Position numbers and translations under genes: made by a program
Assembly: GCA_907163375.1 (NCBI GenBank)
Contig: CAJQUW010000917.1
Span: 175,116-239,115, forward strand
Direction: 5' to 3'
DNA length: 64,000 nt
Origin: Prostheceraeus crozeri
Taxonomy: Eukaryota; Platyhelminthes; Polycladida; Euryleptidae
Shown here: positions 20,194 to 49,240 of the stretch, one piece after another
How the letters are laid out: the number at the start of each line of letters is the position of its first letter
How positions within the stretch are numbered: the first letter of the stretch is position 1
The notes under the pieces: generated by a model
What the model was told of the DNA's origin: nothing
The model's database searches: none
Seen by the model: only the letters and a program-made list of their open reading frames with translations

Positions 20194-22998
20194 CAGGGGT
20201 TCCCAAACTCCGGACCGCGGTCCGAATACGGACCGCGGCATCATTTTCGCGGACCGCAAGGATCTTGTGATGAACGAAAGTATATTGTTGTATACTACCA
20301 CTGAAACAGCTCTATTGAAACAGCATTGGAGTAGCGGCAGTAGCGTATATGAAAACCGTGCGAATCAAACATAGATCTAGGAATGTGGGATTAAAGCTAG
20401 CGATGACTCATTCAGCTTGTCACTGCTTTTCTGATAATAATAGACCGCTGTCGCAAACACACAGCGCAGGTAAAAATAGCTTCATCAGAAAGTCTGAAGT
20501 TCTTCGTTCCCTGGCGGTGCTTTCTATTAATAACTCTTACGCCTGCTATTGATTGTTCCCATACCAACCCGGCATAATTAGTACTCACGCTCTCTCCAGC
20601 AGTTCACTCTTTTGTCATTGGTTAGAGAGGCTTAAATTGTTCCTCTAGTGTTCAAATTATCTACACGTCATAACTTTCATTTAGTTCACGTCTTAACATT
20701 CACTTAGTCATCGTTTTTGCAATAGTGATTTCAAATGGCTACTACAGGGAGAAAGCGAAAAATCGACTGTGAAAATCGTTCCTTCAAAGAAGAATTTACC
20801 GAACTTTTTTTGTTTATTTTACCTGACAATTCTTCAAAACCCGTTTGTTTAATTTGTCAAGAAACCGTTGCAGTGATAAAAGGTGGCAATATGAAACGGC
20901 ATCATGAAACCAAGCATTCAGGGTTCGCAAAAAATTATCCAATATCCAGTGAGTCTCGCTTGTTAAAGATTGACACTCTTCGCAAAAGTTATGAAAAGTC
21001 TGCAAAAGTTATGAGGAACTCTGTCACACAACAGCAGCGATGTTATACAGCTTCTTTGAAAGTTTCGTGGATTCTTAATAAACATATGATACCTCTTACA
21101 CATTCCGAAATTGTCACTAAATGCATGGTTGAAGCATCTGAACTTCTCTTTAACGAGAAAGAAAAAGAGTTGGTTGTGAATGCATTCTCGTCGGTTCCTT
21201 TATCGAATAATACCAATACGCGTCGTTTGGAAGAATTGGATTGCGATATCAAAAAAAAATCATTACAGGTATCAAAAATTCCAGAGGATTTAGGGTATCT
21301 CTGGATGAGTCTGGTGATATGAATGGAATTGCGCAATTAGGCGTCTATGTTCGGTATTTTACTGGAAACAGTTTTCATGATGATTTACTGGAACTTATTC
21401 CTCTGACTGGGCATACAACTGGTAAAGACTTTTACAATGCTATACAAGAATTATTTCAGATTAGTGACATTGACATAAACTAAATGAAGTGCGTTGTTAC
21501 GGATGGTTGTCCATCCATGATAACTCCACGGGTTGGTTTGGTGCATCTACTACGAACAAATAATCCACAACTAATATCTTATCACTGTATCTTGCATAGT
21601 TCAGTATTAACGGCAAAGTTATGCGGTGAACTGAAAGAAATCATGATAACTGTTACACATCTGGTCAGTGTTCTTCGATCAAAGTCTCATCTACAGAGGC
21701 GTTTGCTACGTGCATTTCTACAGGAAGTTGAAGCGGAACACACAGATTTGTTACTGCATAATGATGTGCGATGGTTAAGCAGAGGAGCAGTGCTTCAAAG
21801 ATTGTGGTCTATTCGGGTTGAAATTATTGATTTCCTGACTGAATCAACGAGAAAAGGCTGCGACGAGTATTTGAACTTTTTGAAGAATGATAGGAATACC
21901 GTATTATTCGCATTTCTCGTTGATATTTTTCAACATCTTAACACACTAAATTTGAAATTACAAGGAAAGTCTTCATCTGTGTTTCAACTCATTCATCACG
22001 TTTGTGTATTTCGAAAACGCCTCAAATTATTCCGGGATGATATAAAAGACCAGGACTTTACACACTTTGAGACTCTGAAAGAACTTACTACTCTCGGTGA
22101 AGTTTCTGACTCTGACGCTCTTATTATTTGCAGTTACTTCTTGGACAAACTTTCTGCTGAATTTGCAGCTCGGTTTAGTGATGTTGAAGAATCCTGCAAG
22201 GAAGTGGCTAATTTACTACAATCTCCGTTTGACGTAGACGTGTGGGGAAATTGGAAATCAAAATTACCATCCTTTTCTACATCGTCGATCGGTAAATTAC
22301 AAATGGAGTTAACAGACCTACAGGAAAATATGGAATTAAAATCAAAATTCATGAATGCGTCCTCATTGGCAGTCTTCTTTGTCGAAAGTCTTCCAGAACA
22401 AAGTTATTCGGTGTTGCGGGAAACAGCAATAGATTTGTTTACTTTTATTGGATCTGTGTGGATGTGCGAAAGTGGATTTAGCAAGATGAATTTTATCAAG
22501 AATAAATACAGAAATAAAATGACACAAAGTCATCTGTCTGCCATACTCCGCTCCGCACAGACCACATTAGAACCAGATTTGGTTTCTATTTCTTCGACGC
22601 ATACCCAATTTCATGTCTCTCATTAGTTTTTCCCCTTGTATCTTTTTTATCGGAATATTTCATAGCGTCATTTCAGTGTATTTTCTATTGAAAGCTAGAT
22701 CTCAATTTTGTTAGATATGTAATAAAATTGTGTGTAGTTCTAAAAGTGAATCAAATGTTAATTTTTGTACATGTAACTGACATTAAATTGAAATATTTGA
22801 GATTTAATGGAACTCTTAAAGAGAGCGTTAAATTACTATCGTACAAGTAAATTAGAAGATTTGTAATATCTTAATTATATTCCCTATTACATTGTTTCTT
22901 GCAATTTACCGTGCTTATTAAATGTAAAATTGGACGGACTTCAGTCTTCGTTAAAAACTTTAATCCGGACCGCGACCAAAAATGTTTGGGAACCCCTG
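20194..22998 (+). mobile_element. hAT transposon, complete ends, 8-bp target duplication
   Basis: The terminal inverted repeats are CAGGGGTTCCCAAAC at 20194 and its reverse complement ending at 22998; the subterminal CGGACCGCG motif is also inverted at both ends. The 8-bp duplication GTCTACAT flanks the element at 20186-20193 and 22999-23006. The size is 2805 bp. Ends, duplication length and the encoded BED/hATC transposase all fit the hAT superfamily (ZBED/Charlie-like group). Confidence 0.96.
20735..22626 (+). pseudogene. hAT transposase (BED finger, hATC domain), frameshift plus nonsense
   Basis: It starts MATTGRKRKIDCENRSFKEE. A BED zinc finger (CLICQETVAVIKGGNMKRHHETKH) covers residues about 45-70. 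The frame changes at a run of nine A near 21251, just before the first catalytic Asp (VSLDESGDM). A TAA at 21481-21483 follows ISDIDIN; then the frame continues with the second catalytic region (CVVTDGCPSM) and the C-terminal hATC dimerisation domain (MCESGFSKMNFIKNKYRNKM). Two lesions make it inactive, although the termini are intact and could still be mobilised in trans. Confidence 0.92.
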
Positions 22999-23146
22999 GT
23001 CTACATATTATATTACGTAACCAGTGACGTCGACCAATGGAATTTGTTCTCAACCTCAGACTTATATTTCCACTTAAATACATAAATAAAAAGACATACA
23101 AAGTGTACAAGTAATTTTTTAAAGAAGAAAAATTCAAAAAGAGAAG

Positions 23147-27096: not shown

Positions 27097-27103
27097 TATA
27101 TAT
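27097..27103 (+). promoter_or_regulatory. TATA box of the P2 polymerase gene
   Basis: AAAGTATATATGTAAAG lies about 28 bases upstream of TCATTTCACTC (a likely start region at about 27121-27131) and about 115 bases upstream of the initiator ATG at 27216. Two CCAAT motifs lie 20-40 bases further upstream. Confidence 0.6.
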
Positions 27104-27215
27104 GTAAAGTGACATCCGTGTCATTTCACTCTGTCTTTGAGACGTGTAAGTAAACTGTTCTCTAGTGAAGTCTCTATCTTGTTGAAGAATCAACCTTAAA
27201 CATAATTTCCTTGAA

Positions 27216-30200
27216 ATGGTAAGTTGAAGATTTCCTCTCTCATCTCCCTCAAACGTGTGGCTAATAGCATCTTCCTCAATTTCAGGCATCTACTTCATCA
27301 CCAACGCCCTCCCTTCTCGAGGAAAGTTTAGAGTTGTTGAGTGAAGGTAGGTTGTGACAATACACTGAGACTTTAACAGAGATGATAGAATGATTTCTCT
27401 TTCAGGTGATACCAGTCCCATCTCGAGCGAGTCCATGTCAACATTGTCGCGGGAATGCAACGATCGGGAATGTGCTGACTGTGGGCACATCTTCACGAGG
27501 AAGCGTGATCTCGTCCGACACATCAAGCGAGGTGTTTGTAGACCTAAGTCAGCATCAATCTCCGAAGGTGGGGATGATTCTGTTAACGATGTCTCCTTTT
27601 CTTGCGATTTATGCATTCAGTCTTTTGAGTCACATTTTGAACTATCTTCACATAGACTTCGACATACACACAGTGACGATAGTTATACTAACAGCACCTC
27701 CTCTATCCGACTCTCTGAAGTGTCGATAAATAATTTAGTGAGGAACTACCAGATGGAATCGTCAGAAACCATTACTGACTTTGAAGAATGGTTTCATCAA
27801 AATTCATCTTTGATTGGTGCGCTCCTCAACAATTTAATCAATTTTAGAATGAAGGCGCTCATCTATCTCAAAATAAAATATGTAAAAATCGACCACCATA
27901 CTGGTCAAATAGTAGAGAGGTTGGAGTTTCACATACCCTCCTCTCCTGCAACCGAAGTTGTAGACTGCGAGTCTTGGATAAATTTTCATATCCAAGGGTT
28001 AAAATTAAACATAGATAAATTTAACGAGCGTGATAGTGGACTCGTTTTTGATGGTATTGAGACCGCCATGATTAAAATCACTTTATTAGAGAACTACTCT
28101 GGACGAGGCTCCTTTAAACTTCCGAAAAATTTAAGAAATAAAGCAGCAGTCATTTCTGTAGATTGCGAATCGCAATGTTTTAAGTATGCCGTCCTCTCCA
28201 TTCTCCACTATAATGATGTACAGAATAGCCGATACCGTAAGAGTAAGTATCAACAGTGGGAGAATGAATTAAAGTTTGATGACTGCAATAGTGAAGATAT
28301 GAAAATTAAAGATATAGAAAAATTTGAAAAATTGAACAATATCGAAATAGTTCTTCATGTTTGGGAAAAGGGATTGAAGGGTGTCGGCTACAACTCGCGT
28401 TCGAGTTGTTATGACCACGTTGTCAACCTTTTATTAGTAAGACAGGATGATAGTGAGGAATGGCACTACTGCGGTATTCCCAAAAATGTCTCGCTTATAC
28501 CACCACCTAAGAAATTCTAGCTCATCAGAGATTTATTACTGTGACAGATGCATTCGGAACTTTAGGAGTAAAAACAAATTTGAAACTCATTACGAATGGT
28601 GTAAGCGAGGTAAACTACAAATGGAGCGCATGCCCAAAGATAAGGAGTTTTCATATAGAGAGAATGGCGATGAACTAAGTCCTCTTCGTGTCATCTATGC
28701 TGACATCGAATGCTATATCGATGATATCATCCACAAGCCAGCAGCCATATCCTGCTATGAAGTATGGCATGACCATTTCCAAAATAGAAAAAATAAAATG
28801 CACATCTGGCAAGGTGAGGATTGTATTTACCAATTCCTACAATTCCTCGAACAGGCTGTAAAATTTCAACAAAAGTATGATGGTGAACTCTATCGCAGAT
28901 CATTGCATATGACAGCAGATGATCAAGCAAAATTTGATAGTTGCAACGTTTGCCTCAAATGTAGGAAAACATTTGATGATGATAAGATTAAGAAAGTGCG
29001 CGACCATGATCACATCACTGGTAAATTTAGAAACGCACTATGTTCAAAATGCAATTTTTCACTTAGGATCAAACGGCGTACATTACCCGTCATTTTCCAT
29101 AATTTCAAGGGCTACGACAGCCATATGATAATAAAAGGAGGTTTAGGTCAAATGAAAGAGTGGAAGCTTGATGTAATAGCACAAACGAGAGAGAAGTTTA
29201 TGGCCATGACAGCAAAAGTGCCTGTCGATAAAACTAAAGAAAATAAGACGGTCTATTTTGATATAAAATTTTTAGATTCCTACCAATTTATGACTGCATC
29301 ACTGGCCTCTCTCGTACAAAATCTAAAGTCTCTTCCACTAACACAAAATCTTAAGAAACAATATCCAAATCTAACCGATGAAGTCATCACACGGAAAGGA
29401 GTCTTTCCATATGCATATTTTGATGCGATTAGTAAACTCGGCGAGACTTCTCTTCCACCCATAGATAAATTTAAAAATGATTTGACCGGCGCAGAATGTA
29501 AGACCGAAGATTATGATCATGCACAAGATGCATGGATAAAATTTGACTGCCACACATTTGGCGAATATATGATTGCCTATCTTAAGTTAGATGTATTTTT
29601 GCTGGCTGATGTATTTCAGGAATTTCGACGAGTGGCATTAGAGGAAGATAAGTTAGATCCCGTCCACTTTGTCAGTCTGCCAGCCTTGTCCTTTAAGTCT
29701 GCTTTTAAAATGACTGGTGAGACCATTAATCTCTTACAAGATCCAGAGATGTATAGTTTATTTGAGCGAGGAATTCGCGGTGGTCTCACATTTGTAAATA
29801 AACATTGGTTAAAATAAAAATTAGTAGGCGATGATCAGACTCATCTTAAGTATTATGACCAAAATAATTTATATGGTAGTTCACTATCCAAACCACTCCC
29901 TCACTCTGAGTTTAGCTGGTTAGATGATAGTGAAATTCAGCATCTCTCCAACCCTTCCAACATACTAGCAATTCCAGATGAAGGTGATTGGGGATATTAT
30001 TTTGAGATAGATCTAATCTATCCAAATAATATTAAACATAAAACCGTAGATTTCCCACTCGCGCCCGAATCAGGTGAAGTGACCAAAGATATGTTTTCCG
30101 ACTTTATGAGACAATTTCATAAAGATTTAGAATCATGCGGTCAGCCCGACTATAAGCCTTGCCGCAAACTTTTACTCACCCAATATGATAAGGAAAACTA

Positions 30201-31206
30201 TCTAGTTCACTTTAGCATCTTAAAATTTTATTTAGAAATGGGCATGATTTTAAAAAGAGTTCACCGCATTATTAAATTTAGACAGAAAGCCTTCCTCAAA
30301 CCATATATTGATAGCAACAGCCAGAAACGTGCACTAGCCCAAAATAATTTTGAAAAAGATTTTTATAAGTATAAGAATAATAGTCTATTTGGTAAGACGA
30401 TGGAGGATGTTAGAAAACGTGTAAACTATAAACTAGTCAATGATGTTACAAAATTTAAGAAATTGGTCTCATCACCTCTATTCATCGATAGAGACATTAT
30501 CGATGACGATCTTGTAGGTGTTAAAATGATAAAATCTGAAGTTGAGTTGTGCAAGCCCATCTATATTGGCCAAGCTGTACTAGATTACTCTAAGCTTGAA
30601 ATGTACCAACTCTTTTATGAAATACTAAAACCATGTCCTCTCGTAAAAGAGGTTCGTTTGTTGGGTGGTGATACAGATAGTTTCTTCTTAGGTATTACCA
30701 CTCAAAAAGATTTAAATTTCAATGAAGTAGGAAAATCTTTAGAAAGATATTTTGATACATCAAATTATCCTGCTGATCATCCACTCTACTCCATACAGAA
30801 TAAAGCCAAACTTGGCTGCTTTAAAGATGAAACAGCAGGAAAGGAAATCGATGAAATGATTCTCCTCCGCCCAAAAATGTACAGTATGAAATTAAAGGAT
30901 AGCGACGATAGTATTAAGCGCGCTAAAGGCATATCAAGATCATTGGTCTCTAACATGAAACATAAAAATTTCAGGGAAGCCTATAGAAATAAAAATATAA
31001 CGTTTGTCAATATGACAATCTTAAAATCTAAGTCGCATGAGATCAAAACTCATACTTTTAGGAAACGGGCGCTTTCAGCATGGGAGGATAAGAGGTGCTG
31101 GTTAGAACATAGCATATCTCTTCCACATGGACGTCCTGATACAGACATACCACCACCCAAAAGAATTAAACTCACACTACCACATTCAGGAGACGTCTTA
31201 GCATAA
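27216..31206 (+). pseudogene. POLB: P2 protein-primed DNA polymerase B, two 5' introns, one frameshift and one nonsense codon
   Basis: Exon 1 contributes only the ATG (27216-27218), followed by GTAAGT. Exon 2 is 27286-27346 (ASTSSPTPSLLEESLE) and exon 3 starts at 27406. Two C2H2-type fingers (CADCGHIFTRKRDLVRHI; CDLCIQSFESHFELSSHR) precede the same helical and DCES-QCFKYAVLSILHY blocks as in P1. The frame shifts at an A-run at 28481-28485 within the HYCGIPK region. The exonuclease motif VIYADIECY, endonuclease VII-like RDHDHITGKFRNALCSKCN and LKLDVFLLADVF follow. A TAA at 29815-29817 interrupts just before motif A (DQNNLYGSS). Motif B is KNNSLFGKTM and motif C GGDTDSFF. Expected role is replication of the element from protein-primed ends; this copy needs two repairs to be functional. 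Confidence 0.92.
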
Positions 31207-31385: not shown

Positions 31386-32936
31386 TCACTTTGTTTTCCG
31401 AAACACTAAAGTTACGAGGGATTTAGTATCTTTCACATGGATGCACTCTTGTAAACCATTGGTAATTTTGATAGCAATAGAGGGTATAGTTTGTTTGACG
31501 ACGGGATGATAGAAAATAGATTGAAACATCTTCTCGACTATTCCATATGAAGCGTCTTTATCATGAATGAAATCACGTAAAATGTATTCTTTTTTCTCAT
31601 CAACAGAAATAGGTAGAATCAAATCACTTTGAATGTAAAGGTGCTGTTCATGTTTATCAAGTGTCATTGGTGTTTCTATACCAATCGTATGCGCAGCAGC
31701 AAACACAGTTTGTAGCATTGAAAAACCAAAGAGTTTTTTCAAATTTTTACTCAATTGACATTGAATGTCATCACCCAGTTTCAGAACAACGCGTTGATTT
31801 TCAATTGAAAACGAAATGTGGTGTGTCTTTACATCATATTTACTTTTCATCACATGCTTCAACTTCTGTTGTATATAAGGATTTACTACATGAATGAAGC
31901 TTTCAACTGTACGATATAGACGCGGCATTATATTGATAGCAACTTTAGATTCTTCATAAGACTGGTAAATTTTCTTGATGCGATCGCCATAGATGTCTAC
32001 TCACCATTCATCATTAACTGAATCAGCTTTAGTGTGATGTTCATGAGAAGCATACACCACACCGCTTCCAATAATAGGTGTATAATGTCTTACAAAATGA
32101 CGCAAGGTTGGAGAGAAATAAACTGTAAGTTTGACATTATATTTCTGAATAACCAACTTATTTTTGTCCGCCATAATTTTCTCTCCATACTTCTTACCCA
32201 CAGTCTCATTCCATCGTTTTACTAACTCAATAAGTGATAAAGGTTGAACACCACGCTTTTTCAAAATGATGCGTTCTTCACATTCTACAACATCTTCATC
32301 AAATATTTTAAATGTATAATGAAATTTGTTGATTCGATTTGAATAAACTTTTTTAACATTTGCAGTAGCAATTGACGTTAGATGTAGTCCATGGCCAAAA
32401 CCGAGATGTGGATAGAATTCATTATCCAACCTCAGTGTAAGACCTTTAGTAAAAGAATGAAAGCGAAGGAACTGTCTCCCACTCCAATGATAGATAGTAA
32501 ACTCATAAGCTTTCTGATTTTCATTCTTCATGATGAAAGTATTACCACTGTTGAATGCCTTAATAATTTTCTCATTCCCAAATGGATCATAAGAATCTGA
32601 TTTTATCTGAATCCATTTATAGTTCCACTTTCCATCTGACGTTAAATTGTATGGGAACTGGAATGCATTATTCATCGCTATTCCATCATGGGTGCGAGGA
32701 GTCAATATCATTTCTTCCAAATCATTCACATTCTGAATATTGCTATCATAGCAAATACTAGAAACACCAACCTCCCATTCACCTTCTAAATGTAGTGGCC
32801 GATTTAATTCTACTCGATAGTCTGATGGTTTATTTTTGGGAAATTTATTCATAGAAGCATTACTGGGTAAGTAGATTAGAAACGAGTCCTTATTTTCACT
32901 TTCCATATTATTCACATTGGAAAAATATATTAGCAT
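31386..32936 (-). pseudogene. P2 minor capsid-like protein a, one nonsense codon
   Basis: A single frame of 517 codons, interrupted by TGA at 32001-32003 after SVNDEW. The first in-frame ATG matching the family start is at 32906 (MESENKDSFLIYLPSN). The N-terminal block FPKNKPSDYRVELNRPLHLE and the Trp-Glu-Val-Gly-Val motif are shared with 11195 and with paralogue b. The C-terminal half (MPRLYRTVESFIHVVNPYI) is shared with b at MPRIITSVKLVVDYLNE. Likely single jelly-roll penton-like protein. It ends tail to tail with the polymerase and starts about 10 bases after the stop of paralogue b, so the two look co-transcribed. Confidence 0.65.
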
Positions 32937-32945
32937 ACTTTTGCA

Positions 32946-34304
32946 TTAACTCTTCATTCGGAAATGGAGTGTGATACTTGTCACAGCATCTTTATGAAAA
33001 GGAATCAACGCACCAGCATCGTCATAAATGGCAATATCAATTTGTGGGATGTATTTTGACTTCAGCTTTGTATAATGCACTTTCTTGAAAGTATGCTCAG
33101 ATAAAATACTGCAGCTTTTTGGCTGGTATGGTATCATTGCTAGCAATGGAGCTTCAACATCTCCCACACGTACATCTTCACCAATATTGGAATATATCTG
33201 AAAATAGTTAATACGACGCGATAGCGACATGTCTGCGCTAGCTTTGGTTACAGTACCACTTTTAAAGATATTTTGATCAAAACCCAAAATGTCCATTAGA
33301 GTTTTATCCATAATTAGTTCAATACCTTTTCCACTTATAGTGAGAGACAAAGTACCTTCTTTTTCAGAAAATGAAATATGTTGCTCATTAATCACTTCAT
33401 TTAAATAATCTACAACCAATTTAACCGAAGTAATAATGCGAGGCATCAACACTCTTGTTTCATGTAAGATACCACCTAAAGGCTCTACACACTTTCTGTA
33501 TAAAGATATGGTCCATTCTGTATCAAATTGATTTGACCTTTCACATGGTAAATGTTGCATATCAAATTTTCCATGAACAGCTGCAGAACGATGTCGTAAG
33601 AACTGTTGAAAATCTTTTGAACAAACTAATACTAGATCATCATCATTTAATTTACTTATTGCAATATGATTAGATGATTTGATATAAGTCAATGTTGCCA
33701 CTTGTTTACCATCAACTCGAAGGAGATAATTAAATTTCTTCAATAATGTTTCAGGAGTCATGTTTGTCTTTCTTGGCTTAATCACAATCTTCTTCACCAA
33801 CGTCTTCTCATTTTTTGGAATAAGATCTACATAATAAGCCTCCTCTCGATATATTAACTGTTTATGACCACTTGGGTGGTAATTAACGTTAAAATTATCA
33901 TAGCTTGTTAAGGCGCTAGCGAGGTAACCTAAATCATTTCTTAAACTTGGACTTAAACCAACAATCCAATCTTTCTCAACTACATGATGTACATAATTAT
34001 GATCATCATTGTGCGGAGTAAATTGGACAATATGTTTACACGCTTTATTCAGGAAATCATATATAAACTTTTTACATGATAAGAGATTTTTCTTTGGCCA
34101 CTATACTCGGCAGCCCTTTTCACATTGGTAAGCAGCTGTACGTCTCATATTAATAGTCATCACCTCATGATCAAAAGTATATACACAGTTGCTATAAACA
34201 AGTTGAGTGACACCCACTTCCCAATTTCCATTTAGCTGTTGTGTATGATCAATGGGAGTAGAAGAGTGCGGCTCGATTACTAGCAAATCTCTTTGTAGCC
34301 GCAT
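32946..34304 (-). pseudogene. P2 minor capsid-like protein b, one nonsense codon
   Basis: 452 codons from ATG 34304 (MRLQRDLLVIEPHSSTPIDH), interrupted by TAG at 34101-34103 after EKGCRV. The N-terminal GNWEVGVTQLVYS motif matches WEVGVSSICYD of paralogue a. The C-terminal half carries VGDVEAPLLAMIPYQP and IDIAIYDDAGALIPF, the closest match to the P1 protein (VGDIEAPLL and IDISIHDDAGEIVPF). It seems to be the orthologue of the P1 gene, with paralogue a an additional, more diverged version. Its 5' end faces the PC4-like gene only about 60 bases away, implying a compact divergent promoter. Confidence 0.65.
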
Positions 34305-34367: not shown

Positions 34368-34724
34368 ATGAAGACTTGGATTTTGGACTCTCTACAATAT
34401 ATCAGAGTTGATCGTGATGAAAACGTACATTTCAGAAATTCTCATGGTCATACATCAAGAGGAATTACATTAACATGGCGACAATTTGTCAACCTCAATG
34501 ATATCATGAGGGATTTGGAATATTTTGAAACATTAAGATTCATCTCCTTGGGTGATCAAGTTTGGCTTCAACATTACAGAAATGAAATTCAAATCTGCCA
34601 TTCTCATTCCGCAAACTGTTTCTCATTTCGCAAATACAATTGGGAGAAGTATAGAAGATACATACATCGCTCCATCATGACATTTATTCGTCGTGAGTTC
34701 ATCGCCCTACTATGCAAATCTTAA
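34368..34724 (+). CDS. PC4-like protein, short paralogue (P2)
   Basis: Intact, 118 residues from ATG 34368 (MKTWILDSLQYIRVDRDENV). It has the two strand-plus-helix modules of the family (SRGITLTWRQFVNLNDIMRD; then GDQVWLQHYRNEIQICHS and a C-terminal helix) but lacks the acidic tail. It is followed after 22 bases by a longer paralogue. It is about 40% identical by eye to that protein over the shared part. Tandem duplication in P2 and a single copy in P1 suggest that gene dosage or heterodimers matter. PC4 kinship is an inference from the pattern. Confidence 0.55.
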   Translation: MKTWILDSLQYIRVDRDENVHFRNSHGHTSRGITLTWRQFVNLNDIMRDLEYFETLRFISLGDQVWLQHYRNEIQICHSHSANCFSFRKYNWEKYRRYIHRSIMTFIRREFIALLCKS

Positions 34725-34746: not shown

Positions 34747-35397
34747 ATGAGTTGGAAATTAGATTCCCTACAACGCATTGAAACGGATCATGATCGAAAC
34801 GTCTATTTCAAAGATTCAACTGGAAATGTGAGAAGAGAGTTTGCTTTATCTTATCGTCATTTTCAATCTCTACATCATATCATGAAGGATTTGAAATACT
34901 TCTATATGAAAAGACATTCACGTATTGGAAATCGCATCTGGTTGCGCGTCAACAATCGGCGAATTCAACTCTATCATTCCCAACTTCATACTAACTTCAC
35001 ATTTCATCAAGGTAGTTGGGAAAAGTATAAAAGTAAGGTACATCGCTCAATTTACTCATTCTTTCATCATGAAGCGCCATCGCTACACCATCGTCAACAT
35101 TCTCCGTCGCTTCAGACTCTACACCAAAATCCATCTCACAACATTACACCAACACCTTCCAAACAGCAAGTATTACCCGGGCCGACCTCAAATGTTAGTG
35201 GTGAAGATGAACAATTCACGGAATCTTCAACTCTTCCGAAATGGGACTGTACAGATTCTCGGCGCCCTTTCTCATTCATCGGCGCAGTCAATGCGCTTAG
35301 AGCTACAAAGACTACTACGTCGGATATGGAAGAGGGAGAGGTGTGTGATGTCGAATCTGACTGTGGACAATATGGTAATCTCTACTCAATTGAGTGA
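34747..35397 (+). CDS. PC4-like protein, long paralogue with acidic tail (P2)
   Basis: Intact, 216 residues (MSWKLDSLQRIETDHDRNVY). Two beta-rich modules, each closing with a helix (RREFALSYRHFQSLHHIMKD; and SWEKYKSKVHRSIYSFFHHE), are followed by a His/Pro/Ser-rich linker and an acidic end containing MEEGEVCDVES. The last 329 bases also encode the first 110 residues of the TBP-like protein in the +1 frame. The P1 gene at 15492-16076 has the same layout, with the same short acidic motif and the same relative frame. Confidence 0.6.
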   Translation: MSWKLDSLQRIETDHDRNVYFKDSTGNVRREFALSYRHFQSLHHIMKDLKYFYMKRHSRIGNRIWLRVNNRRIQLYHSQLHTNFTFHQGSWEKYKSKVHRSIYSFFHHEAPSLHHRQHSPSLQTLHQNPSHNITPTPSKQQVLPGPTSNVSGEDEQFTESSTLPKWDCTDSRRPFSFIGAVNALRATKTTTSDMEEGEVCDVESDCGQYGNLYSIE

Positions 35398-35614
35398 AAG
35401 TGTATCATTTTTGAAGATTCGTACCAGCAGTTACAATTTCTGTTATGAACCCGAACTTTTTCCTGCAGCTCTCATTAGTTGTTGGTTACCTGTGCATGTT
35501 GCAATCTTTCATAATAGTAAAGTGATCATTACTGGACTAAAATCTCATGTACAAGCAAATGTGATCCTAGACTATCTCATCGAGTATGTACGTACCCAGC
35601 GGATTGTAAAATAA
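35069..35614 (+). CDS. TATA-binding-protein-like protein of Polinton P2
   Basis: Intact, 181 residues from ATG 35069 (MKRHRYTIVNILRRFRLYTK). Half 1 carries IVN near the start, an N-x-x-Y-x-P/G-R-P turn, LQLFRNGTVQILGA and a helix. Half 2 carries NLTVDNMVISTQL, then YEPELFPAALISCW, HVAIFHNSKVIITGLK and a helix. YEPELFP followed by I-F-x-S/G-K-V-V/I-x-T-G is the best known signature of the TBP C-terminal repeat, and the half-1 pattern LFxxGxV--GA matches repeat 1. Length equals that of the TBP core (about 180). It overlaps the PC4-like gene by 329 bases. Role (recognition of the element's own TATA promoters) is inferred; the DNA-contacting Phe pairs should be checked by modelling. Confidence 0.87.
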   Translation: MKRHRYTIVNILRRFRLYTKIHLTTLHQHLPNSKYYPGRPQMLVVKMNNSRNLQLFRNGTVQILGALSHSSAQSMRLELQRLLRRIWKRERCVMSNLTVDNMVISTQLSESVSFLKIRTSSYNFCYEPELFPAALISCWLPVHVAIFHNSKVIITGLKSHVQANVILDYLIEYVRTQRIVK

Positions 35615-35645
35615 AAAACAATTTTTCCAACATGATGTTTTTATT
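35610..35645. terminator. Convergent polyadenylation signals between TBP-like gene and protease
   Basis: AATAAA on + at 35610-35615 overlaps the TBP-like stop. On the minus strand AATAAA at 35645-35640 overlaps the protease stop. The arrangement mirrors that of P1 at 15043-15077. Confidence 0.7.
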
Positions 35646-36102
35646 TCAAATCATGATAGAACTTACAAATCATTTTTTCATTAGAGGATGGATTACATGA
35701 AAAGTTTTGAATAACAGATACAAATCGAGATACATGTAAACGCTTTAAGATGAAGTACAGTACAAAAGCACCACACGTTGATGAAAGTGGATGTTGTAGT
35801 ATGCGTTCATTACGCTGATATTGACGCGCATGTTTTCTCAACCACTGCTGTGTTGGTATATTGGGAGGTTGAGCAAGAGAGTCAAATAGTTCACCACGTC
35901 GGTCTTCTCCAATAAAGATCGCTTTCCAATGCTCACCGCCTAAATTTTGCGAATGAGTGTTTAGCACAATAAAGATGGGATAGTGATTTACTGCAGGTGG
36001 TAAGGTATCGAGTGAATAGACATTATCGAAAGCTTTCAACGTCGCTTCGTCTGCATTACGCTGCACTTTAGTCTTAATATCGTCAGCAGTCAACCAACTC
36101 AT
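35641..36102 (-). CDS. Adenovirus-type maturation cysteine protease (P2)
   Basis: Intact, 153 residues, the same length as in P1. Catalytic His is in GEHWKAIFI, Asp in LFDSLAQPP and Cys in TCGAFVLYF. Its ATG (36102-36100) shares one base with the TAA of the major capsid gene (TAATG), so translation may depend on termination-reinitiation. Expected to process virion precursors. Confidence 0.92.
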   Translation of the reverse strand: MSWLTADDIKTKVQRNADEATLKAFDNVYSLDTLPPAVNHYPIFIVLNTHSQNLGGEHWKAIFIGEDRRGELFDSLAQPPNIPTQQWLRKHARQYQRNERILQHPLSSTCGAFVLYFILKRLHVSRFVSVIQNFSCNPSSNEKMICKFYHDLK

Positions 36103-37379
36103 TAACGATTATACTGAAGAATCACGTCACGATACTTTGTAATTTCAATATTTGAATCGAAGACTGCATAAATTAATACATTGATCGTCTCAGGTAGTGT
36201 TCTTTTGAACGTCAAATCCAAACGAATATTATGAGGCACGTTCGCTTGACGATAGGGTGCACTAATATCGCTGTCAGCAGTCAAATCAAATGCATAAATA
36301 GTATATCCACTCTTAAACTGTTTCATAGTCAGTCCGTTGGTGTCATCCGTATTGTAAAAGCCAAAGACATCCATAAAATCAACATAACTGCGCATAAATT
36401 GATCCGCAGCAAAATCTGGTTTGTAGGGTGGACCAGGATGACTCACACCATTTACACGTAAAGCAATTTCACTTAACTGATTGTGTTTAAAATTGAAAGG
36501 ATTCTTCTTTATATTACCATTAAATGCATCATTTTCAACCATTGCCACCATGAGGAGCTTCGGTGCTTCCCATGGAAAGAGGCCATCTTTCATGAAACTC
36601 TTTTGATCTTTCGGAATTGTAAAGGTGAGAAGCTTTGTATGCTGAACGGGGTAAATGGCATTTTGGCGGTTAAGACCTTCAGCATGTCCTCTAATGACAC
36701 TTGGATTCGGTACTACTCGACGAATGTAAAGTGCAATATCTTCCACATGAATTCTAAAATTGTCAACTTTAGCAAATGCATTCAGCGCAAATTCAGGCTT
36801 ATTCAATGTCAGCTTGAGTCGCATGCTGGTATTACAGAGTAAAAACTTTGACTGTCTAAAGAAGTCTAAATTCAGCGGACCATATAGCTGACATACTTTA
36901 CTATCTTTAATCATAGCAGATCGCTTTACAAAGCCACTGTTTGTTTCAACATCAAATTTTCCTGCTTCATCTCTGTACCATCCCATGGCTTCCATATGAC
37001 TTTTTTGTGCTGCTGGATGAAACTGTGATACATGATTGAAATATGATTTATAGGGATAATCGCTTTGACCACCTTCCACCTGCTGCTCTCCAATCGTTAG
37101 AGAAACATCACGAAGTAATGTAGTCAATGGTAAATTGTTCAGTCCAACTTTATGTGCATCGTCAATAGCAGTTCCATCTGCTTGCTGAATTCTAAACCTC
37201 AAATCAAGCATCGCATAACTCAAATCTATGTAGTCATCACTACCACCAGGAATAACAAATTCAATGGGGCCAGCATTCTCAGCTGTTCGAGGATGATAAT
37301 CTACAATACTTGAACTAAGAATATCTGTCTGTATGGCTTGTTGATCAAACAAACAAAAACCGGAGGTTTTACACTCCAT
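36102..37379 (-). CDS. Major capsid protein, double jelly roll (P2)
   Basis: Intact, 425 residues (MECKTSGFCLFDQQAIQTDI). It shares with P1 the TDI-SSSIVDYHP start, NNLPLTTLLRDVSLTIG, the LNLDFFRQSKFLL block, IRRVVPNPSVIRGHAEGL, KNPFNFKHNQL and FYNTDDTNGLTMKQFKSGY. Length and conserved blocks match Polinton major capsid proteins, which form trimers with pseudo-hexagonal shape. Only two bases separate its start from the stop of the core gene. Confidence 0.92.
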   Translation of the reverse strand: MECKTSGFCLFDQQAIQTDILSSSIVDYHPRTAENAGPIEFVIPGGSDDYIDLSYAMLDLRFRIQQADGTAIDDAHKVGLNNLPLTTLLRDVSLTIGEQQVEGGQSDYPYKSYFNHVSQFHPAAQKSHMEAMGWYRDEAGKFDVETNSGFVKRSAMIKDSKVCQLYGPLNLDFFRQSKFLLCNTSMRLKLTLNKPEFALNAFAKVDNFRIHVEDIALYIRRVVPNPSVIRGHAEGLNRQNAIYPVQHTKLLTFTIPKDQKSFMKDGLFPWEAPKLLMVAMVENDAFNGNIKKNPFNFKHNQLSEIALRVNGVSHPGPPYKPDFAADQFMRSYVDFMDVFGFYNTDDTNGLTMKQFKSGYTIYAFDLTADSDISAPYRQANVPHNIRLDLTFKRTLPETINVLIYAVFDSNIEITKYRDVILQYNR

Positions 37380-37381: not shown

Positions 37382-37837
37382 TTAGAAGTTATAGCAGCGT
37401 CGTCGTTTAGCGCCTGATGAATGATTAGAACCTCTGTGACGTTTGCGTGAATGCCTTTTGACTAAAGATCGCACCTTACCAGCTCCGCGATGTTTCCTCC
37501 TTCCTTTATTCATTCGTTTAGGTGATTTCTTTCCTTGAGTAACACCAGCAAAAGTCTGCTTCAATGTTTTTAAACCGCGTTCCTTCCCACGATTCAACAA
37601 ACTGCTCTTAAAACTTCTACCTCTGGAAAGATCACTAGCAATATCACCAGCAAAGCCAACGGCATTACTTAAAACATTTCGTTTTAAAGATCTACCGACA
37701 TTGGATATGAGAGGTGCTACAACAGATTTCAGTGCACCAAGTATGCTACCTCCACGTTGGCGGCGAGCGCCGATGTAAATTTGTCCTCCACCACTTACAT
37801 AGGAGGGTCGTGAATAAAATGAGACAGTTGGATTCAT
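37382..37837 (-). CDS. Basic core-like virion protein (P2)
   Basis: Intact, 151 residues. The N-terminus SFYSRPSYVSGGGQIYIGAR is followed by RQRGGSILGALKSVVAPLI, a hydrophobic/amphipathic middle, and a Lys/Arg/His-rich C-terminal third ending in AKRRRCYNF (P1 ends SKRRRLTYF). The shared terminal aromatic after the basic cluster indicates true orthology. DNA-condensing virion component by composition and position. Confidence 0.75.
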   Translation of the reverse strand: MNPTVSFYSRPSYVSGGGQIYIGARRQRGGSILGALKSVVAPLISNVGRSLKRNVLSNAVGFAGDIASDLSRGRSFKSSLLNRGKERGLKTLKQTFAGVTQGKKSPKRMNKGRRKHRGAGKVRSLVKRHSRKRHRGSNHSSGAKRRRCYNF

Positions 37838-37878
37838 AGCTCAAACCCTAAACATTGTTAGTTACAACTTTGCATGAA

Positions 37879-39844: not shown

Positions 39845-40501
39845 CTAGATAATCATGGGAGTTTTCAAAATATCACTTCGAAATCTAAATTCTTCCGGAC
39901 ACTCTTGCGTAAAGTCAATGAATAAGTAACCGTATGGTTTTTCAGTAGCTGCTTGAAAAATTTCAATTAAGGCTTTTGATCCTCTAGGTGCAACTTGTCG
40001 CGCTAAAATTTCAAATTGACTTTTATCTCGCGGATTCTTGAAAGTAGCATAATAGTGTGTATTCAGGTTTCGTGTACGAGCTTCTTTTCCATCAGGAAAC
40101 AATTTTTGTGTGATATAGATGATAAAGCACCTTTTATGATGTGCTGCGCGAGTGAACATATCTGTAACATCTTTTGAATTCTTACTTTCTTTTAATAAAT
40201 CATCCAATACAACAACATCATTAGACTGAAGTTTATCCACTGGAATAATTCCTTCATGTCGAATAAAGTTGCGACTCTGCAATTCCTGAAACAGCGACGG
40301 TTGATAAATACCATAACACCAAATCACTCGATTGATAGGTTCCTTAAACAACTCCCTTCTTTTATCCAATAAATTCAGCGTGAAAACAGTTTTACCTGCA
40401 TGAGATGAGCCTGATACAGTCAGAACTTTATCGCATTGAAGTCTGAAATCCATTTTAATACTTTGAGATTCAACATTTGCATAATTAACGCTTAGAGCCA
40501 A
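39845..40501 (-). CDS. Packaging ATPase, FtsK/HerA type (P2)
   Basis: Intact, 218 residues. Walker A GSSHAGKT, Walker B VVVLDDLL, then ESKNSKDVTDMF and YITQKLF. The C-terminus PYGYLFIDFTQECPEEFRFR equals the P1 motif. Its first 17 bases overlap the end of the preceding small basic gene, in another frame. DNA-packaging motor of the presumed virion. Confidence 0.92.
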   Translation of the reverse strand: MALSVNYANVESQSIKMDFRLQCDKVLTVSGSSHAGKTVFTLNLLDKRRELFKEPINRVIWCYGIYQPSLFQELQSRNFIRHEGIIPVDKLQSNDVVVLDDLLKESKNSKDVTDMFTRAAHHKRCFIIYITQKLFPDGKEARTRNLNTHYYATFKNPRDKSQFEILARQVAPRGSKALIEIFQAATEKPYGYLFIDFTQECPEEFRFRSDILKTPMII

Positions 40502-40835: not shown

Positions 40836-40863
40836 TTTCCGTGTTAGTCTTTGCTAAAACCTA

Positions 40864-42285
40864 CAGAGACCGCAAAAAGTTTACGAACACCTTCTAAAAA
40901 TAGATGAAATTTGACTGCCTGGTTGAATCGCTTACCAGAGCCGATAGCAATGCTGATTTTCCCTTCATGCAGCGTAACTTTAGACTATTGGCTGTCTGGA
41001 TGTCCAATTAGATACACCAGATACACTATTGAATATTGTCTGCCTCTCATTGCCTCCTCATTGACGTAAAAAGTCACACACGAGTGTGAGCCGTCAGAGT
41101 TAGTATTGGTCGAAAACCGCAGCTTTCAGTCGCTGTGCGCTCGAATATATTGCTTTTATCTGAAGAAGGTTACAGCCAGCGACAGATCTCCAAGCGTCTT
41201 AAGATTTCTGTTGCATCAGTCAACAAGTTTCTGAAGCTGAAGGACGCAGGAGAATCACTGGAACCTAAGAAGAGGACCGGGAGGCAGCGCAAGACTTCGT
41301 CCAGGACTGACATGCAGATCAAGCGTCTAGTGTCACAGAAACCGTTTTTGTCAGCTGCCCAAATCAAGGCCGAACTCCCAGGCATCTTGGACGACGTCAG
41401 CTGTAGGACAGTCCAACACCGGTTGCACTCGGAGTTGGGCTTCAAGGCCAGAAGACCAGCTCGCAAGCCATTTCTCACAAAGAAGATGAGGAAGAAGCGC
41501 CTGGAGTTCTGCAGGGCTCACGCGAACTGGACAGCTGAACAGTGGTCCACCGTCATGTTCAGTGACGAGTCTGTGTTTCGGCAGTTCGGGAACTTCAAGA
41601 CCACTGTCCGCCGGCCGCCCGGATCGTCTGCCTTCTCTCCTCAATACGTGGTGCTGACGGTGAAGCACCCTCCATCAGTGATGGTCTGGGGCGCCTTCAG
41701 TGCTAGAGGACGAGCTGGTCTCTACTTCCTGGAGAAGAACACAACGATGAACGCCAACCGGTACATCGATGTGCTGGACAACCACCTGTTGCAGTTCATG
41801 GAGATCCAGGGGTGTACGACATTCCAACACGACGGTGCTCCTGTCCACAAGGCTAAGAAGGTGAGCTTGTGGCTCCGAGAACACCGCATCACTCAGCTCG
41901 ATTGGCCCGGGAACTCACCCGATCTCAACCCAATTGAGAATCTCTGGGTTCTCTTGAAGAAAAAGATGGCGGAAAAGAATTGCAGCAATGTGGAGGAACT
42001 CAAGAACCACCTAAAGATGATCTGGGTGACTGATATTTCGGTGGAGCTGTGCCAGAGTCTGGTCATGTCTATGCCACGCCGCATACAGGCCGTTCTGAAG
42101 AACAAAGGTTATGATACAAAATACTGAAATTTTTTCATTAAAATGCTTTGTTTGTATCAAATTTGATGTGTTTTCTTCACTAATCATGTTATATGTGCAT
42201 TAATACGTCATTCAACACATAGTTTTACTGGACAGACAATTCTCTTGAATTCTGAGGGGTGTTCGTAAACTTTTTGCGGTCACTG
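40864..42285 (+). mobile_element. Tc1-like transposon nested in P2, intact ends
   Basis: Inverted repeats CAGAGACCGCAAAAAGTTTA at 40864 and the reverse complement (with one base difference near the tip: CAGTGACC) ending at 42285. TA duplications lie at 40862-40863 and 42286-42287. The size is 1422 bp. GC content is visibly higher than that of the host Polinton, consistent with recent arrival. It separates the small basic gene from the P2 end genes. Confidence 0.96.
41135..42127 (+). CDS. Tc1 transposase, DD34E, open throughout but without an in-frame ATG at its start
   Basis: 330 codons. Helix-turn-helix motifs (GYSQRQISKRLKISVASVNK) are followed by the catalytic Asp in MFSDESVF, Asp in FQHDGAPVHK and Glu in SPDLNPIENLW, a complete DD34E triad. 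Length is near the usual 340. The natural start codon seems changed: the expected position reads GTG CGC TCG, and no in-frame ATG occurs between the upstream TGA (41087) and residue 57 (ATG at about 41310). All else is intact, so this is probably a very young copy with a start-codon mutation. Confidence 0.9.
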   Translation: MRSNILLLSEEGYSQRQISKRLKISVASVNKFLKLKDAGESLEPKKRTGRQRKTSSRTDMQIKRLVSQKPFLSAAQIKAELPGILDDVSCRTVQHRLHSELGFKARRPARKPFLTKKMRKKRLEFCRAHANWTAEQWSTVMFSDESVFRQFGNFKTTVRRPPGSSAFSPQYVVLTVKHPPSVMVWGAFSARGRAGLYFLEKNTTMNANRYIDVLDNHLLQFMEIQGCTTFQHDGAPVHKAKKVSLWLREHRITQLDWPGNSPDLNPIENLWVLLKKKMAEKNCSNVEELKNHLKMIWVTDISVELCQSLVMSMPRRIQAVLKNKGYDTKY

Positions 42286-42310
42286 TATCTTTACCACATT
42301 TGCATAGGTA

Positions 42311-42634
42311 CTAACTATTGCGACATAAGTGACACTCGAAATGAGCAATGTCACAGTGGTTACATTGGCAAAGTTGAATGCAATTACGTATGAAACAGCG
42401 TTGACAAAAAGCATGCTTACATCTCTTGAAGATGCGCTTTTCATTTCCATCCTTTCGCTTACATACATCGCAACACATAGTTTCACCGTTACTGATGTCT
42501 ATAGCAAGTCTTTTTGAAGATATGAATTTGCTAGCCTTTTCTAAATAATAGACGCATGTACAGAAGGAATATACTTCGAGAGTGAGCAGACATAGCTCGA
42601 AAACCAGTTGTGCTACAATCAAGTACCACTGCAT
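42311..42634 (-). CDS. Membrane-anchored RING-like protein (P2)
   Basis: 108 residues from ATG 42634 (MQWYLIVAQLVFELCLLTLE). The first 30 residues form a strong hydrophobic segment (signal anchor). A Cys/His-rich domain follows: CCDVC, then FKRCKHAFCQRCF, then CQCNHC and CHLC, compatible with a RING or RING-variant finger. Its start lies three bases beyond the stop of the preceding gene. A viral membrane-associated ubiquitin ligase is a reasonable guess; proof is lacking. Confidence 0.6.
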   Translation of the reverse strand: MQWYLIVAQLVFELCLLTLEVYSFCTCVYYLEKASKFISSKRLAIDISNGETMCCDVCKRKDGNEKRIFKRCKHAFCQRCFIRNCIQLCQCNHCDIAHFECHLCRNS

Positions 42635-43717: not shown

Positions 43718-43966
43718 CTATAACATATTACAAAATGAAGAATTACATCGATGCTTTTCACGACAAAATACACAAATGATATGATGGCAGCGAAGAAGTA
43801 AAATGTATCTAATAAGACCACGTCTACGACACTCAAAGCACATAAGCGAATTGTCATAGGGTAGAGTTAGGAAAGGACTAGTAATTCTCCTTCTTTGATT
43901 TGCGTTTTGATGCAGCATTCTTCTCCGACTTGCGCTTCGTACCACTGCTGTTAAGGATTTGATCAA
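43718..43966 (-). CDS. Short RING-like zinc-binding frame overlapping the ssDNA-binding-like gene (P2)
   Basis: 82 codons, of which the last 41, from the ATG of MCFECRRRGLIRYILLLRC, contain C-x2-C, then C-x-H, then C-x2-C and C-x5-C spacings (CHHIICVFCREKH). It overlaps the C-terminal end of the gene at 43878-44653 in another frame. The motif is short of a full RING but resembles the terminal RING of the P1-side gene at 3926. It may be real (compact viral coding) or partly spurious. Confidence 0.4.
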   Translation of the reverse strand: MIKSLTAVVRSASRRRMLHQNANQRRRITSPFLTLPYDNSLMCFECRRRGLIRYILLLRCHHIICVFCREKHRCNSSFCNML

Positions 43967-44653
43967 TTATGTCATCCACGTTGGGTGGTTTTGGAATATA
44001 TAGGATGGATTCCATATGCATGGAGAGAGAGACTATTTTATTATCCTTGTGCCGACCATAATATAGCCCATTCACTTTGAAAAGGATATCCCAAGTACCT
44101 TCTCCGAGCTCATCACATGTGATGATTGTTGATTGATCTCCATCCTTCTTATAGTAAGTACACCAATGTGATACCGGTAGGCAAATGTGATTACCATCCC
44201 AAATCTTTCTATAGGGAGTATCCTTGTCATCTCTCGCCTTCCACTCTTGAGCAAGAGGAGTAGGAATGTCCATATTTAATGTCACGTACTCCTCAATAAT
44301 ATTAAGTTGGCGGCGAATATACGGACTCACGGGGATAAGTATGTAGTCCCCATACTGATTGCGCATTATCTTGACATCCGTGGAAGGGAGCATTCCCGTT
44401 TGGAGTACTACGCTATGATCGCCATAACGCAAGACTTGTTTAAATTTACGCTGTAGCGGTGTAGGATTATGTACCTTGGTTGTTTCTTCCACTGACCTCA
44501 GTTGTAGATGATCTGATCGGAGCGAACCTTGTAACGTTTGACCGTCATTTTGTCCTACTAGTGCAGCAGATGGAGTAGATGCCTGAAAATGAAAAAAGAT
44601 TGTATTAAGTTTACGTTCAAGGGAGGAGAGGGAGGGAAGTAGCGACTTACCAT
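43878..44653 (-). CDS. Putative ssDNA-binding protein of P2, split initiator exon
   Basis: Exon 1 supplies only the ATG (44653-44651), followed by GTAAGT at 44650. Exon 2 begins at 44582 after TTTTCAG and is open in frame to 43878, starting ASTPSAALVGQNDGQ. The folded core (residues about 45-190) shows a strand-rich pattern with HICLPVSHWCTYY, then CDELGEGTWDILFKVNG and LYYGRH, similar to the P1 protein at 7649-8424. A Lys/Ser tail (KRKSEKNAASKRKSKKENY) closes it. Likely OB-fold replication protein. It is driven by the outermost TATA promoter of P2. Confidence 0.6.
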
Positions 44654-44748
44654 TTTAGTTGGATAATAGAATAGAGAGAGAGAGAAAATGTGCGTCCGTC
44701 ACTCGTGTGATTCAACGATGGAATGATTCTCACTGTGGAAGGCTTGCT

Positions 44749-44755
44749 ATTTATA
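44749..44755 (-). promoter_or_regulatory. TATA box at the right end of P2
   Basis: On the minus strand CTTTATAAATAGCAAG lies about 100 bases upstream of the initiator ATG (44653); the sequence CCACAGTGAG about 20 bases further down is a possible start region. An inverted-orientation CCAATGAG box is at about 44776. Confidence 0.6.
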
Positions 44756-46860: not shown

Positions 46861-47470
46861 TCTCCAAAACAAAAAAGAAACGTGAATCACCGAAAAATAA
46901 ATTTCAAAATTTTCCGGAAAATTTTCCATTTGCATCACTAACCACATGTAATAAGCAATAACAATACTCAGATGATGAAACTTACCTAGATTGAGTCCAC
47001 TGAAGGTCGATTTTGTAAATGTAGACATCGGGATTCAGGTTGATTGTACCTCAAACAAGTTTAAATCTTGAACCCAAGTAGCACAAACTCCTAGCATACG
47101 TTGGTCCTGCATTGGTCCTTTGAATGTTACATTGGCTTTCAGTGGCCTTCGTTAGCCGACATAAGCCAGCATTGGTCCAACGTTTGTATCTTTCCATTGG
47201 TTTCGAAAATTGGTTGGCTTGGAGTTGGCTTACGATGGCCATCTTAATCCTTTAATGAACCGATGTAAAATGAAAATGTAGATACCCATGTTCGAGCCAA
47301 TGATGGTCCATTAATGGTAATTTTGTCTGAAAGGCTAGATGACAGTTGAATAAAGTGCATAGGAAGAAAAACATTGTCATGGAACATACTCTATTAGCGT
47401 TACCCTATTATTGTTTTATTACAATATTTTAATGGAAATATAATTCTGAATCAGATTAAATTATCGATAA
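46861..47470. other. No supported gene; TTGG/CCAA-rich repeat-like stretch
   Basis: 46880-46935 repeats the AATTTTCC words seen near 2950. 47085-47320 contains many short TTGGC, CATTGGT and GGCCTT words, resembling the last 150 bases of the window in style. It probably represents dispersed repeats. The gypsy insertion site ATAA is at 47467-47470. Confidence 0.5.
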
Positions 47471-48098: not shown

Positions 48099-48100
48099 AC

Positions 48101-49237: not shown

Positions 49238-49240
49238 CAA

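Follow-up and report, generated by a model that had tools for sequence, protein, structure and literature searches.

The window analyzed here, a stretch of 64,000 nucleotides (nt) from the genome of the polyclad flatworm Prostheceraeus crozeri (GenBank assembly GCA_907163375.1, contig CAJQUW010000917.1, positions 175,116 to 239,115 of the forward strand), holds two Polintons, P1 and P2, each of which carries a gene for a homologue of the TATA-binding protein (TBP). The P2 homologue (P0001, 181 amino acids [aa]) is encoded at positions 35069 to 35614 of the forward strand, and the more divergent P1 homologue (P0003, 187 aa) is encoded at positions 15155 to 15718 of the reverse strand. In both elements, the TBP gene lies between a polymerase-type gene and a protease/capsid pair, and its start is overlapped by an open reading frame (ORF) in another frame (34747 to 35397, forward strand, in P2; 15492 to 16076, reverse strand, in P1). 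An earlier note on this DNA had assigned the P2 gene to a TBP encoded by a Polinton; the P1 copy and both overlapping ORFs were absent from it. That these elements encode a TBP, both as a matter of homology and as a matter of element membership, is virtually certain.

TBP as a gene of Polintons

The P2 ORF matches the Pfam family PF00352 with 72.8 bits (cutoff, 22.9; E value, 2.1e-20) in two stretches, and the P1 ORF matches the same domain with 35.3 bits (E value, 1e-8), also in two stretches. A sequence search of the PDB with the P2 protein returned 35 distinct TBP sequences (best E value, 1.6e-12). A profile built from 55 relatives of the P2 protein matched the PDB TBPs with an E value of 4.5e-25 and a profile of five cellular TBPs with an E value of 9.5e-22 (99.4% probability). 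The stretch YEPELFP...KVIITG, which the earlier note had cited as a signature, is present in the 181-aa ORF, and the two-fold internal repeat that it had recognized is evident both from the two Pfam stretches and from the alignment of the N-terminal and C-terminal half profiles of the family (E value, 3.7e-6; 87% probability). The AlphaFold2 model of the P2 protein is confident (pLDDT, 95.3; pTM, 0.85) and ten-stranded, and it runs twice through the order S1-H1-S2-S3-S4-S5-H2, although helix H1' of the second repeat is unformed. Judged by this order of strands and helices rather than by superposition, the predicted fold is the two-repeat saddle that the earlier note had expected of a TBP. The Pfam and PDB matches, the profile comparison, the predicted fold, and the genomic context all bear out a TBP encoded by the element.

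The 2.05-Gb host genome contains at least 150 copies of the P2 protein, all of which align over 181 of 181 residues, are 98 to 100% identical, and have no stop codons. The same genome searched with the TBP profile offered 10,982 candidates, of which 150 were scored, the host's own genes included. So many near-identical, stop-free copies of the P2 type suggest that Polintons multiplied recently in this host. Among the more distant genomic copies, five from two lineages (L096 to L100) were examined, and all of them adjoin homologues of P2 genes, namely, the protease and capsid genes in three of them (L096, L097, and L099), the polymerase gene in two, and the overlapping ORF in three. The region beside L097 (L131) holds an integrase with rve and Chromo domains, an ATPase, and the start of a capsid gene. 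The host's own TBP is found in separate exons on contig C9306 (L093 and L095), and a gene on contig C3829 (L094), which we take from its motifs to be TRF2-like, is a separate locus.

Relatives of the P2 protein in the protein database numbered 53 at first and then 213 at an E value of 1e-5 or better, and the Pfam TBP domain is present in all 120 of the relatives listed from these 213. The longest contig measures 10 to 25 kb in 15 of the 120, which fits element-sized DNA and gives no gene context. One relative (P0073) is labeled TFIID TATA-box-binding protein in its JGI record, which indicates that single relatives had been labeled before. In IMG/VR, the patterns used retrieved neither relatives of this TBP nor relatives of the P1 and P2 ATPases, and the phage collection yielded no relatives of this TBP. 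The earlier note knew of no described Polinton gene of this kind, in agreement with a partial survey of the open-licence PMC literature, with the founding adintovirus paper outside it, in which no published TBP of a Polinton, Maverick, or adintovirus was found; the passages available from PMC11071308, PMC10675990, PMC10132985, and PMC12220804 mention none. TBP genes of giant viruses and mirusviruses are described in passages of PMC10132985, PMC12768974, PMC12085832, PMC11464507, and PMC4602308, and a passage of PMC10675990 reports, in an alga with Polinton-like viruses, TBP genes carried by integrated elements that are putatively derived from mirusviruses. TBP is among the most conserved eukaryotic proteins, and giant viruses, mirusviruses, and some herpesviruses were already known to encode versions of it; here, a TBP is carried by a transposon of about 18 kb, in at least 150 near-identical copies, in a host that has its own TBP.

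Residue pattern and origin of the family

In total, 122 family sequences were aligned with cellular TBPs and numbered after the Arabidopsis protein, with the phenylalanine labels following a figure legend of PMC10005294. The C-terminal repeat is conservative, with F148 in 121, F165 in 122, T173 in 120, V119 in 119, and N117 in 119 of the 122 sequences (119/121 ungapped); a deletion of one residue precedes F165, and position 163 could not be judged. The acidic stirrup residues that contact TFIIB are kept as well (E144 in 120/122 and E146 in 122/122). In the N-terminal repeat, F74 (121/122) and N27 (102/122, with 19 gaps; 102/103 ungapped) are kept, and L72 is replaced by Q in 117/122, V80 by Q in 122/122, and T82 by L in 108/122. 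F57 is replaced by P in 117/122 (117/119 ungapped), the rest being three gaps, one Q, and one L, and no sequence has F at this position. Apart from the phenylalanines, we presume these aligned positions to be contacts in the DNA groove. The comparison of intercalating phenylalanines that the earlier note had called for therefore gave a mixed answer, in which F74, F148, and F165 are near-invariant and the fourth, F57, is lost, mostly to proline. Since F57 is replaced across the family, the protein is not simply a second host TBP. The two kinks of the TATA box are divided between the repeats of TBP, with the C-terminal phenylalanine pair producing the 5' one and the N-terminal pair the 3' one (passage of PMC3142196), so that with the phenylalanines of the C-terminal repeat kept and the N-terminal repeat rebuilt, one half-site contact would be retained and the other altered.

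The same pattern bears on two alternatives to a promoter-specific TBP. The protein might act as a decoy, lowering host transcription by binding TFIIB or other partners of TBP, and the kept TFIIB-contact residues would serve this role, as might the K found in 92/122 sequences at E51, which we take to lie on the TFIIA side. A pure decoy, however, would not need three of the four intercalating phenylalanines or the near-invariant N27 and N117, which makes this explanation improbable. About equally improbable is a TATA-blind relative of TBP in the manner of TRF2/TLF, which would recruit TFIIA and TFIIB to promoters chosen by other factors. TLF is counted in the TBP family despite its lack of TATA binding and still binds TFIIA and TFIIB (passages of PMC3142196), and one phenylalanine is lost in the Polinton TBPs. 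However, the Polinton family carries the eukaryotic TBP stretch YE.ELFP, and its groove residues are replaced in a fixed rather than a random manner. The presumed TRF2-like gene of the host, moreover, is a locus of its own.

Position 147 is L in 108, I in 13, and V in 1 of the 122 sequences. It is Leu in the three aligned eukaryotic TBPs and Q in all 16 archaeal and all 11 IMG/VR TBPs used; the latter keep F57 in 10 of 11 cases and fall outside the Polinton clade. The phylogenetic tree, which was computed without three short rows (P0009, P0053, and P0117), with 16 of 80 archaeal loci, and without IMG/VR locus L009 (no long enough matching frame), places 119 family members in one group (node support, 0.17) next to the three eukaryotic TBPs, with a support of 1.0 for the joint node. 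Within it, the P1 TBP pairs with P0126 (support, 0.94), and the stem branch of the Polinton TBPs measures 2.29 substitutions per site. As far as these sequences go, the Polinton TBPs appear to descend from a eukaryotic TBP, separately from the sampled viral TBPs, with long-branch attraction being possible. Cellular eukaryotic TBP, the nearest neighbor in the tree, shares with the Polinton TBP its length, two repeats, predicted fold, YE.ELFP stirrup, TFIIB acidic residues, and three of the four intercalating phenylalanines. The Polinton TBP differs from it by F57P, L72Q, V80Q, T82L, the deletion before F165, and the long stem, and P0001 is without an N-terminal extension. More than 200 natural TBP sequences whose two halves have diverged in DNA-contact residues would provide a direct test of how TBP reads DNA.

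Promoters of the elements and a proposed late-promoter role

A scan of 34 kb of P1 and P2 on both strands for TATA(A/T)A followed after 17 to 25 bases by TCA(G/T)T(C/T) gave five matches, at both P2 ends, at the P2 TBP gene, at the P1 TBP gene, and at the P1 gene that corresponds to a P2 end gene. Shuffling gave means of 0.45 and 0.54 matches with a maximum of 3, and the pattern is absent from 19 kb outside P1 and P2. The P2 TBP promoter (35026 to 35061, forward strand) has its TATA box at 35026 and the initiator TCATTC at 35056 to 35061, inside the overlapping upstream ORF, and in the P1 TBP promoter (15726 to 15759, reverse strand) the first T of the TATA box is at 15759 and the initiator TCATTC is at 15731 to 15726. 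The P2 left-end promoter (27097 to 27126, forward strand), upstream of the polymerase-type gene, combines TATATA with TCATTT, and the right-end promoter (44721 to 44755, reverse strand) combines TATAAATAG, with TATAAA at 44755 to 44750, with TCATTC. The fifth match (7563 to 7599, forward strand) lies upstream of P1 ORF 7825-8424, which is homologous to the P2 end gene at 43878 to 44393 (E value, 4.4e-10). The TATA boxes that the earlier note had placed before the P2 end genes are present within a few bases of the positions it named, each with an initiator 26 to 31 bases downstream.

The layout of the TBP promoters recurs in other TBP lineages. In the TBP genes of P2, P1, and L096 to L100, which represent four lineages with proteins 27 to 47% identical to that of P2 or P1, a TATA box is found at -41 to -47 in all seven; six of them also have the TCATT initiator (-13 to -16), the exception being L100. 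Thirty near-identical copies were fetched, one of them without the exact start context, and in the other 29 the TATA box is kept in 28 and the initiator in 29. The paralogous ORF at 34368 to 34724, which is not overlapped, has TATAGA at the corresponding place.

The P2 ends share an inverted stretch of 87 nt that is 74% alike (left member, 27214 to 27299, forward strand; right member, 44569 to 44655, reverse strand; score, 57 versus at most 30 in 20 shuffled controls). At 27216 to 27285 and at 44653 to 44583, both members contain the same ATG and, by eye, the same apparent first-intron borders (GTAAGT...TTTCAG) around an intron of 67 to 68 nt. Because the ATG and the apparent intron borders are the same at both ends, the P2 end genes are probably spliced transcripts of RNA polymerase II (Pol II), and they probably begin with the same short exon. 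The outer terminal repeats and outer ends of P2 were looked for and not found; the two end promoters are 17.7 kb apart, and the element measures roughly 18 kb.

No TATAAA was found within 80 bases before the internal genes (0/14 in P2 and 0/11 in P1). These 25 genes were chosen by hand from the ORF list, leaving out the TBP genes, the P2 end genes, the P1 polymerase ORF, and ORF 3926. Their lack of TATAAA bears on the version given in the earlier note, in which the element would have a further TBP of the general kind, able to bind ordinary TATA boxes (TATAAAAG) and to feed forward on the TATA promoters at the ends and the TBP gene of the element, either boosting them or releasing them from host TFIID. 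In agreement with this version, TATA boxes occur at both P2 ends and both TBP genes, and the C-terminal repeat is kept. However, none of the 25 internal genes tested has TATAAA at that distance, and the almost family-wide replacement of F57, L72, V80, and T82 would lead one to expect weaker binding of canonical TATA boxes, so that feed-forward of this kind is unlikely, though less so than a decoy. Redirection is best looked for not at the TATA boxes of the end genes, whose promoters are of the host type, but at the internal genes, which lack TATAAA and have a motif of their own.

De novo motif search before the internal genes gave T-T-A-T-G-C-A-A-A in P2 and T-T-T-A-A-G-C-A-A in P1. The motif TTANGCAAA precedes 18 of 20 window genes (site score of at least 4.5; all training genes) and 4 of 8 hold-out genes. 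Before this count, two start codons were shifted by 30 bases, to an ATG suggested by the P1/P2 comparison or by the sequence. In a cross-element test, the P1 motif was enriched before P2 genes with a p value of 2.6e-6 and the P2 motif before P1 genes with a p value of 0.005. The hold-out consisted of eight genes from two other lineages (seven from L131 and one from L132), scored with a matrix trained on P1 and P2, and gave a p value of 0.017 when position was not restricted. Four of the eight have a site scoring at least 4 at -38 to -36, versus 2.5% of background windows for -40 to -31 (p = 8e-6), and none of 200 column-shuffled matrices did as well in that window. Over the window and hold-out genes together, 14 of 25 motif sites fall within -50 to -30, where a uniform spread would give 7.3, and none of the four TATA-class genes looked at is preceded by the motif. 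A shared non-TATA motif before the internal genes is therefore moderately supported. A late box of the TATT type precedes 2/14 and 3/11 genes (p = 0.19 and 0.036) and was set aside.

Candidate late-promoter motifs located by the matrix scan in P2 include TTATGCAAA (40476 to 40484, reverse strand), 31 nt before the ATG of the ATPase gene, and TCATGCAAA (37869 to 37877, reverse strand), 40 nt before the ATG of ORF 37382-37837. Two others are CTATGCAAA (34710 to 34718, forward strand), 37 nt before the ATG of ORF 34747, and TAATGCAAA (32940 to 32948, reverse strand), 42 nt before the second in-frame ATG (32906, taken as the start) of ORF 32001-32936.

We propose that the Polinton TBP acts at late promoters of its element, a reading to which we give a probability of about 0.5. 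An element-specific TBP would be made early, from a host-type TATA/initiator promoter like those of both end genes. Its C-terminal saddle half would be kept for the 5' kink and the TFIIB contacts, and its N-terminal half would be rebuilt, with conserved glutamines in the minor-groove surface; with one half kept and the other rebuilt, the altered saddle would therefore, in this proposal, bind the hybrid site T-T-A-N-G-C-A-A-A, often at about TATA distance upstream of internal genes without TATAAA. The target genes would be those for the ATPase, the integrase, core-type proteins, and others. TBP on the hybrid site would bring host TFIIB and Pol II to these late genes, and the outcome would be an early/late switch. 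The homology, the predicted fold, the presence in several Polinton lineages, the residue pattern, and the TATA/initiator layout are computed results; the early/late timing, the binding of the motif, and the recruitment of TFIIB would follow if the proposal is right. More tentatively, the protein may use a split code that evolved from eukaryotic TBP independently of the herpesviruses, in which the C-terminal repeat would read the T-A-rich upstream half of the site and the glutamine-bearing N-terminal repeat would read G-C-A-A-A. If true, this would amount to a private core promoter and a virus-like early/late program on host Pol II for an animal transposon, and it would account for the way in which Polintons could run a timed virus program in the nucleus with no RNA polymerase of their own. 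The Pfam scans, which covered part of the window's ORFs, detected no RNA polymerase.

Several results weigh against the late-promoter role or the motif on which it draws. By likelihood, the P2 motif is barely ahead of the best of 24 random sets (33.46 versus 33.34), and the motif found in P1 alone does not exceed its null (22.2 versus a mean of 21.8). In the P1 genes, the strand control gave a p value of 0.05, and 2 of 100 column-shuffled matrices were as good. The -40 to -31 window was picked after the hold-out positions had been seen. No motif site is found before two of the 20 window genes and four of the eight hold-out genes, motif positions scatter from -76 to -20, and the 20-gene count omits five of the 25 training genes, two of which had a site of at least 4.5 and three none in an earlier scoring. 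ATGCAAAT is also the octamer of the host's POU factors. Weaker TATA-like boxes occur at -40 of the P1 polymerase ORF (TATATA) and at -66 of P1 ORF 6371 (TATAAG), and the P1 TBP has T at both N117 and V119 in the otherwise conserved C-terminal repeat. Purifying selection on the TBP gene was also considered and is not used as evidence. In the same 29 loci, the ratio of nonsynonymous to synonymous changes among distinct variants is 0.05 to 0.09 for TBP versus 0.43 to 0.59 for flanking genes (0.16 to 0.29 versus 0.17 to 0.60 by counts), and genomic copies of the protease gene and of the overlapping ORF show four and two stops, respectively; because the copies were ranked by TBP protein score, the low nonsynonymous rate is biased.

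A close functional parallel may be the TBP mimics of beta- and gammaherpesviruses (BcRF1, ORF24, and UL87), which act at late non-TATA (TATT) promoters through host Pol II (passages of PMC4893493 and PMC12529657). In these passages, ORF24 resembles the Polinton TBP in having a polar groove interface, but it has further domains, keeps all four phenylalanines, and lacks the TFIIB-binding acidic residues, and the mimics recognize TATT. The Polinton TBP, in contrast, is a bare core that has lost one phenylalanine, has kept the acidic residues, and has T-T-A-N-G-C-A-A-A as its candidate site, the mimics being compared by description. We propose, by analogy, that the two resemble each other in role and are of separate make. 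Poxvirus VITF-3 is likewise a virus-encoded promoter factor, TBP/TFIIB-like according to PMC12917281; it serves the poxviral RNA polymerase, unlike the use of host Pol II proposed for the Polinton TBP.

Other genes of the elements and neighboring repeats

The overlapping ORF of P2 (PC4b, 216 aa) and its P1 counterpart (194 aa) share a short acidic tail ending in EEGE(I/V). A 118-aa paralogue of PC4b (34368 to 34724, forward strand) gave an AlphaFold2 model (pLDDT, 85.2) with two tandem units of four strands plus a helix, a predicted topology like that of PC4/Sub1 that resembles a single-chain PC4/Sub1 dimer. Sequence comparisons did not bear out a PC4 identity of the family, with no Pfam PC4 match in eight members (one weak Nudix match), a best PDB E value of 0.073 that is not credible, and a probability of 1% (E value, 0.052) against the PC4 profile; the predicted topology alone fits PC4, so that a PC4 relationship is kept as a lead.

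Convergent with the P2 TBP gene is a gene for a protease with a weak match of the Ulp1/adenain type (35641 to 36102, reverse strand; Pfam Peptidase_C48, 0.0012, and Peptidase_C5, 0.045, both under the curated cutoffs). It adjoins ORF 36102-37379 (reverse strand), which we take, partly from gene order, to encode the major capsid protein; this candidate has no Pfam or PDB match and one weak, unrelated PHROG. A packaging ATPase candidate is encoded at 39845 to 40453 (reverse strand), with a weak Pox_A32 match (0.015) and an AAA_14 match of 3.5e-6 in its P1 counterpart. The P2 polymerase-type gene (27390 to 31206, forward strand) comprises three ORFs, in which Pfam detected a C2H2 finger and endonuclease VII; it is presumed from its motifs to encode PolB, and no polymerase match was obtained in Pfam, PHROGs, or the PDB. 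The integrase is supported by rve (1.5e-13) and Chromo (1.5e-7) matches in L131 and by a Chromo match (2.6e-9) in P1, and none was identified in P2. Chromodomain integrase, adenain-type protease, and ATPase genes are shared with Polintons and adintoviruses, as would be the candidate capsid and putative polymerase genes and, if they stand for terminal repeats, the inverted sequences near the P2 ends. TFIIIB guides some retrotransposons, and a TBP might by analogy tether an integration or replication complex to host promoters, governing target-site choice with no role in transcription. The elements do possess an rve and chromodomain integrase, but the TBP gene is grouped with the protease and capsid genes rather than with the integrase, and we consider tethering the least probable of the explanations weighed here.

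Several repeats and insertions lie in and beside the elements. A stretch of P1 genes is present twice (1 to 2061 and 11207 to 13289), 11.2 kb apart and 98 to 100% identical over three reported repeat pairs. Beside the P1 polymerase gene, inverted arms of 30 bases (83%) surround ORFs 20735-21322 and 21484-22626 in a segment (20179 to 23013) that we take to be a hAT insertion. Two other elements with inverted arms (40857 to 42292 and 4450 to 6248), one of them within P2, where it separates the ATPase side from the right-end genes, are presumably Tc1/mariner-like. Short ORFs near the P2 right end (42311 to 42634, without Pfam support) and near P1 (3926 to 4510) have, by eye, RING-like cysteine-rich C termini. 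At 47468 to 54972, identical direct repeats of at least 300 bases, 7.2 kb apart, surround large ORFs in what looks like a young long terminal repeat retrotransposon, and a tandem repeat with a 311-base unit (2.1 copies, 97% matches) occupies 61042 to 61684.

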